Of a DNA stretch of 64,000 nucleotides, positions 698 through 33,341 are shown piece by piece; the stretch's first letter is position 1, and every line of letters begins with the position of its first letter. The stretch covers positions 62,001 to 126,000 of the forward strand of contig NZ_JH126467.1 of NCBI RefSeq assembly GCF_000225705.1, written 5' to 3'. A program made the position numbers and the translations under genes. The notes beneath the pieces are model-generated. The model ran no database searches, had not been told where the DNA came from, and worked only from the letters and a program-made list of their open reading frames with translations. This DNA comes from Collinsella tanakaei YIT 12063 (GTDB taxonomy: Bacteria; Actinomycetota; Coriobacteriia; Coriobacteriales; Coriobacteriaceae).

Positions 698-891
698 CCA
701 ATCGATACATGTATTAGATTGGACCATATTGAACCTCTTCATATGGTCCGCTGTAATACCACTGTTGAAATCGGTATTACAGCGGACCAGAAAAATCAGA
801 AAAAGTGGTTATCTATAATACCGATCTCATTTTACGTATTACCAGGAACCACTTTGGATCCAAATAGTGGCTCAAAGTAATACATGTATCG
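698..891. repeat. Palindrome-rich cassette with 14-bp terminal inverted repeats
   Basis: An exact 14-bp inverted repeat (CGATACATGTATTA at 703-716, its reverse complement at 878-891) bounds 189 bp packed with further dyads. These are GGACCATAT/ATATGGTCC (721-749), a perfect 16-bp stem GGTCCGCTGTAATACC with its complement (745-760/773-788, 12-base loop), AAAGTGGTT/AACCACTTT (802-810/847-855) and an imperfect 22-bp palindrome at 849-870 around TTTGGATCCAAA. GGTCC at 745-749 can pair left or right, and CCACTTT at 849-855 likewise, so alternative folds compete. It is less GC-rich than its surroundings. No protein is evident and no target duplication was seen. It could be a MITE-like element, a recombinase or replication site, or a structured RNA. 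Confidence 0.75.
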
Positions 892-33091: not shown

Positions 33092-33341
33092 GGCGCGTGG
33101 TGCTGTTGTGGTGTGCAGCCCGTTTGCAGAGTCGCGGCTTTGGCGTTTCGCGGCCTCGGCAGACAATCGATGCCTTCTGTAATCGTTTCTCAGCTGACCG
33201 CAGCTGTGTTCTCTTTGATTTATGAGTGCCACAACACAGTTTGGGGTGCAATCGCAATAGAACCAGCGGAGCCCGTCTCTCGTGAAATTGGCGCGGGCGA
33301 TGCAAGGGGTTTACTTTAAGGACTCGGTGGCACCCGAGTCC
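33092..33341. other. Unassigned stretch ending at a plus-strand terminator
   Basis: A small plus-strand frame (33113-33319) contains a hydrophobic peptide starting MPSVIVSQLTAAVFSLIYE at 33171 and stops exactly at a terminator hairpin. It has no clear ribosome site. It may be a small transcript (peptide or RNA), but this is weak. Confidence 0.35.

Follow-up and report, generated by a model that had tools for sequence, protein, structure and literature searches.

Closest in form to the repeats reported here are the BIME/REP elements, which are intergenic, with regularly spaced palindromes in alternating orientation whose arms remain complementary despite sequence change (PMC2817692). The BIME-2 elements among them bind DNA gyrase (PMC2817692). 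The CGTC-tagged repeats are likewise an intergenic palindromic family without a dedicated transposase (PMC3733652), and MITEs and the enterobacterial RU/ERIC-type repeats are dispersed, intergenic, and of similar size (about 190–220 bp). The genome of Collinsella tanakaei YIT 12063 (2.49 Mb, in 20 contigs) has a family that resembles each of these and differs from each. Unlike REP sequences, it has no GTAG/GTGG head; neither such a tag nor CGTC is conserved, the consensus at the hairpin foot being AA(A/G)TGG. Its units are 46 bp rather than the 20–40 bp of BIMEs, and there are only 13 copies, every one a fixed four-hairpin block, with no solitary hairpins. A search for RAYT (Y1 transposase, PF01797) gave no match in this genome at E ≤ 0.001, with controls matching in 5 of 14 genomes. 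Relative to the CGTC-tagged repeats, the family differs in the missing tag and the fixed four-hairpin array, in its stems (17 bp vs. 8–9), and in its loops (12 nt vs. 4–5; PMC3733652). In contrast to MITEs and RU/ERIC-type repeats, it has no consistent terminal inverted repeat, its ends varying between half and full hairpins; no autonomous partner was found, with just two half-sites outside the elements, about the number expected by chance; and the copies are too diverged for recent transposition. It behaves most like a BIME, yet has neither the REP tag nor a RAYT. Since these and the CGTC tag are all missing, it is classed among the interspersed palindromic repeats as a new family, one outside the two known tagged super-families and whose genome gave no hit for the usual transposase, and we infer a mechanism for it below. 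With its 13 natural replicates of rigid geometry, the family lends itself to deciding if repeats of this kind are parasites or sites of use to the host.

The copy from which the family was recognized is an intergenic cassette at positions 693–883 of the window, the whole 64,000-nt stretch of DNA that was analyzed. Hairpin H1 (693–726, TGGTTCCAATCGATACATGTATTAGATTGGACCA), which has a short loop and whose arms were aligned to the 12 other copies, is followed by spacer A (727–743, 17 nt) and by hairpin H2 (744–789, 46 bp), with a perfect 17-bp stem and a 12-nt loop. Spacer B (790–805) is 16 nt, as in all 12 complete copies. Hairpin H3 (806–851), also 46 bp but with an imperfect stem, comes exactly 62 bp after H2, and spacer C (852–867, 16 nt) leads to the left arm of H4 (868–883, TGGCTCAAAGTAATAC), whose outer arm (884 to about 901) is missing or degenerate. 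The original prediction, of a cassette bounded by an exact 14-bp inverted repeat, was right about the letters (CGATACATGTATTA at 703–716 and TAATACATGTATCG at 878–891, 189 bp end to end) and wrong in taking them as ends: other copies finish in half or full hairpins of differing sequence, and the array is larger, the 14-bp repeats being only pieces of its outer half-sites. The interrupted stem it described was found at 802–821/836–855, while its perfect 16-bp stem is present but 17 bp long (744–760/773–789). A proposed 9-bp stem (721–729/741–749) can also be seen, but it pairs conserved bases across a spacer and is unsupported across copies. The cassette is, as noted earlier, low in GC (37.6%, vs. 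57% in both flanks and 59% in the window). It folds far beyond chance on either strand (z of −7.2 for the plus strand and −8.3 for the minus strand), with none of 200 shuffles equaling it.

The cassette is a member of a lineage-restricted interspersed DNA repeat family and not a one-off. Searching the genome with it gave 14 matches. The family comprises 12 near-complete copies; a shortened one, the 13th, on C7; and a decayed, GC-enriched relative at C6:66628 (L109:2170–2300, GGCACGCTCCGATACC...GTATCGGAGCGTGCC), which may have turned into a terminator. Copies are ~190 bp in size and follow the plan H1, 16 or 17 nt, H2, 16 nt, H3, 16 or 17 nt, H4, with H1 or H4 often reduced to its inner half and with H2 and H3 each 46 bp (17-bp arms around a 12-nt loop). 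The distance from H2 to H3 is exactly 62 bp in 12 of 12 complete copies, and the 108-bp core of these has a mean identity of 64% (maximum 73%) and zero indels. The pattern search used to list copies demanded a fixed loop length; a covariance search with indels allowed found nothing more than the decayed C6 copy and additional units adjoining the copy at C3:143522. The latter are further half-sites at the next expected positions (L110:390–450), an isolated or truncated array unit. On the duplex, the array is a run of 31-bp monomers (approximately AAAgTGGTNCNNNNTAATACCGATTTY) that alternate in orientation and make three to four consecutive palindromes. The fixed motif of the monomer is AA-TGG-N7-TAATAC, with the information in AA, TGG, and TAATAC; TAATAC, at the top of the stem, is essentially invariant, and positions 7–10 carry little information. 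Exact hairpin matches numbered 19 (each strand counted), all within elements, against none for the reversed control. An apparent common orientation of all copies proved to be an artifact of the training alignment, the element being nearly symmetric and its orientation ambiguous. The core identity of 64% is about the level given by the shared motif; spacing and motif are held exact, and the remaining sequence has drifted to near-random.

Pairing between arms was evaluated at seven variable arm positions, with arms drawn from separate copies as the comparison. The two arms of one hairpin match far above this cross-copy level in H1 and H3 (p ≤ 0.0001 for each) and in H2 (p = 0.003); both arms of H4 are present in too few copies for such statistics. 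Pair counts from the alignment also give covariation in H2 and H3. Only partner arms match, however: cross-spacer pairs, and the right arm of H1 with the left arm of H4, agree no better than arms from different copies. The mutually exclusive structures that had been proposed are thus not upheld, and competing pairings appear because the conserved ends are common to all half-sites. Partner pairs are bimodal, 11 of 38 matching at all seven positions (1.3 expected) and 12 of 38 at two or fewer; some hairpins have unrelated arms. Base-by-base compensation would yield intermediate values. The all-or-none matching is a better fit to, and suggests, the copying of blocks from one arm to its partner, as in template switching between inverted repeats, a process known to homogenize their arms (PMC8604942). 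All-or-none arms provide a test case for distinguishing template-switch homogenization from compensatory selection, which covariation methods usually confuse. Shuffling of arms between copies was considered as well and found no support, with 10 identical non-partner pairs against 3–16 expected, according to the null chosen.

In the window, the copy has the terminator of one tRNA unit on one side and the promoter side of the following unit on the other, with tRNAs at 328–403, 410–485, 1090–1163, and 1208–1283. A terminator-like hairpin at 1059–1080 belongs to the tRNA-Gly/Cys unit; it is ordinary and stands apart from the element. This setting had earlier been read as a tRNA integration hotspot, but it is incidental, the other 12 copies being beside ordinary protein genes. 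By rough gene calls, seven of the 13 copies are between convergent genes, six between codirectional ones, and none between divergent ones; among spaced gene pairs in the window the corresponding baseline is 6/36 convergent and 8/36 divergent, an enrichment for convergent sites at p = 0.002, subject to the same rough calls. All copies appear to sit downstream of a gene or transcription unit, after its 3′ end.

Beyond its own genome, the family was absent from 44 genomes of the same genus searched at the DNA level and with a covariance model (16 of the 44 with a laxer search). Evenly drawn samples, 199 genomes from the order and 396 from the phylum, gave no match. A search by pattern through ~85,000 genomes of species and through viral contigs, plasmids, and phages found no family member either, nor did one of the genome-contig collection, which may omit C. 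tanakaei itself. The large covariance searches had stricter filters, by which weak matches can be lost. A pattern for the architecture only matched 25 stretches in species genomes and viral contigs, mostly AT-rich and none resembling the element. Nothing relevant on a Collinsella palindromic repeat or MITE was found in the literature. Single occurrence, with stems unconserved in close relatives, had been named as the outcome that would refute the original prediction; the cassette is repeated within its own genome, but the relatives are without it. At the polA site the intergenic region is 110–250 bp in relatives vs. 517 bp here, and from tRNA-Gly to tRNA-Cys it is ~42 bp in several relatives vs. 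605 bp. The ends of the insertions are not definable from these comparisons because the relatives are too diverged (~83% identity in polA for the nearest). Directly after polA in the YIT 12063 genome there is a near-perfect 66-bp inverted repeat (L042:3200–3265), probably a strong terminator, and in three genomes of the genus (L079, L083, and L084, at about 2230–2400) a different long palindromic insert (GGCGGCGCGGATTAGTTTTTCG...CGAAAAACTAATCCGCGCCGCC) lies downstream of polA; it is missing from the same site in others (L081 and L087). This insert looks to be a mobile palindromic repeat of its own in the genus.

The reading we put first, tentatively and in the knowledge that it may well be wrong, is that of a palindromic DNA element, specific to the lineage and placed at the 3′ ends of genes, that is read by a putative host factor. 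Dead insertions should lose both spacing and motif, and both are intact, so either the copies are maintained in place or some process renews them with a fixed geometry and free arm sequence; maintenance in place is favored because there are no close pairs of copies. The putative DNA-binding factor would recognize TGG-N7-TAATAC half-sites, either in duplex form or as an extruded hairpin; half-sites are spaced by about one helical turn and dyads by 31 bp (about three turns), and each copy would be kept owing to this recognition. The array might then work at transcription-unit ends as a boundary element or a supercoil element, like the gyrase-binding BIME-2 of E. coli, and its arms could be made identical in blocks via template switching within hairpins during replication. 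We infer that the family has been mobile, the copies presumably having been spread long ago by some enzyme. Several points weigh against a host-factor site. Many DNA-binding proteins would need no complementary spacer bases, and the unrelated arms of some hairpins indicate that pairing is not strictly required; absence from all relatives tested is odd for a host function; and the convergent bias also fits passive tolerance of insertions at such sites. The fuller account, in which a lineage-specific chromosomal site array has a putative protein reader at transcription-unit ends and arms block-rewritten by template switching with spacing and motif constant, making it a RAYT-free BIME analogue, is doubtful as a whole.

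Somewhat unlikely, too, is that the copies are simply relics of past transposition of a MITE- or REPIN-like element, mobile but nonautonomous, with no host role. A nonautonomous element was among the options of the original prediction, and the 13 copies of the same anatomy agree with it, but the supposed 14-bp ends are not true termini. The copies are dispersed, intergenic, and lineage-specific, and avoid divergent (promoter) regions; relatives have matching sites without the element (polA, tRNA-Gly/tRNA-Cys); and there are the decayed copy at C6:66628 and the shortened one on C7, all of which speaks for such relics. At 64% identity, however, indels and motif decay would be expected as well, whereas 12 copies are indel-free over 108 bp and keep TAATAC. 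Recent near-identical copies are absent, as are an autonomous partner with half-sites and a Y1 transposase.

Less likely again is a bidirectional intrinsic terminator array, in which a hairpin and T-tract would halt transcription from either side, mostly between convergent genes. Convergent sites are over-represented, the missing strand bias would be expected if both strands are transcribed, and spacer B, CTTTTTTC-GAAAAAAG-like, has ~5.3 T among the 8 bases next to the stem on both strands. Spacers A and C, however, have only 3–4 T in 8, good T-tracts being confined to spacer B. A consensus terminator scan did not call the element; that scan allows loops of 3–8 only. Termination would need neither an invariant TAATAC nor 12-nt loops nor fixed lengths of 46 and 62 bp, and some sites already have ordinary terminators (the hairpin at 1059–1080 in the window, and the 66-bp one after polA).

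Deviations from pairing in the stems are G–U in 17 cases and A–C in 20 (10 vs. 9 in well-paired hairpins, and equal per element too, in small numbers); a functional RNA from one strand would tolerate G–U and not A–C, so the equal counts argue against the structured RNA that had been offered as an option. Such an RNA, despite the strong folding and the covariation within hairpins, is very improbable when both strands fold equally well, a clear fixed orientation is absent, and a promoter scan around the window copy gave no promoter-like site. The shape of the copies is apparently kept at the DNA level. Rfam searches at gathering and loose thresholds gave no credible match at the element, just chance ones of microRNA or snoRNA type. 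Elsewhere in the window, there is an Rfam match to the Collinsella-1 RNA at 33189–33340 on the plus strand (37.3 bits vs. a gathering score of 35). The window also has tRNA-Gly(GCC) genes at 402–487 and 1200–1285 with flanks 99% identical, a third copy at 328–403, and two copies of tRNA-Val(GAC), at 2491 and 2835.
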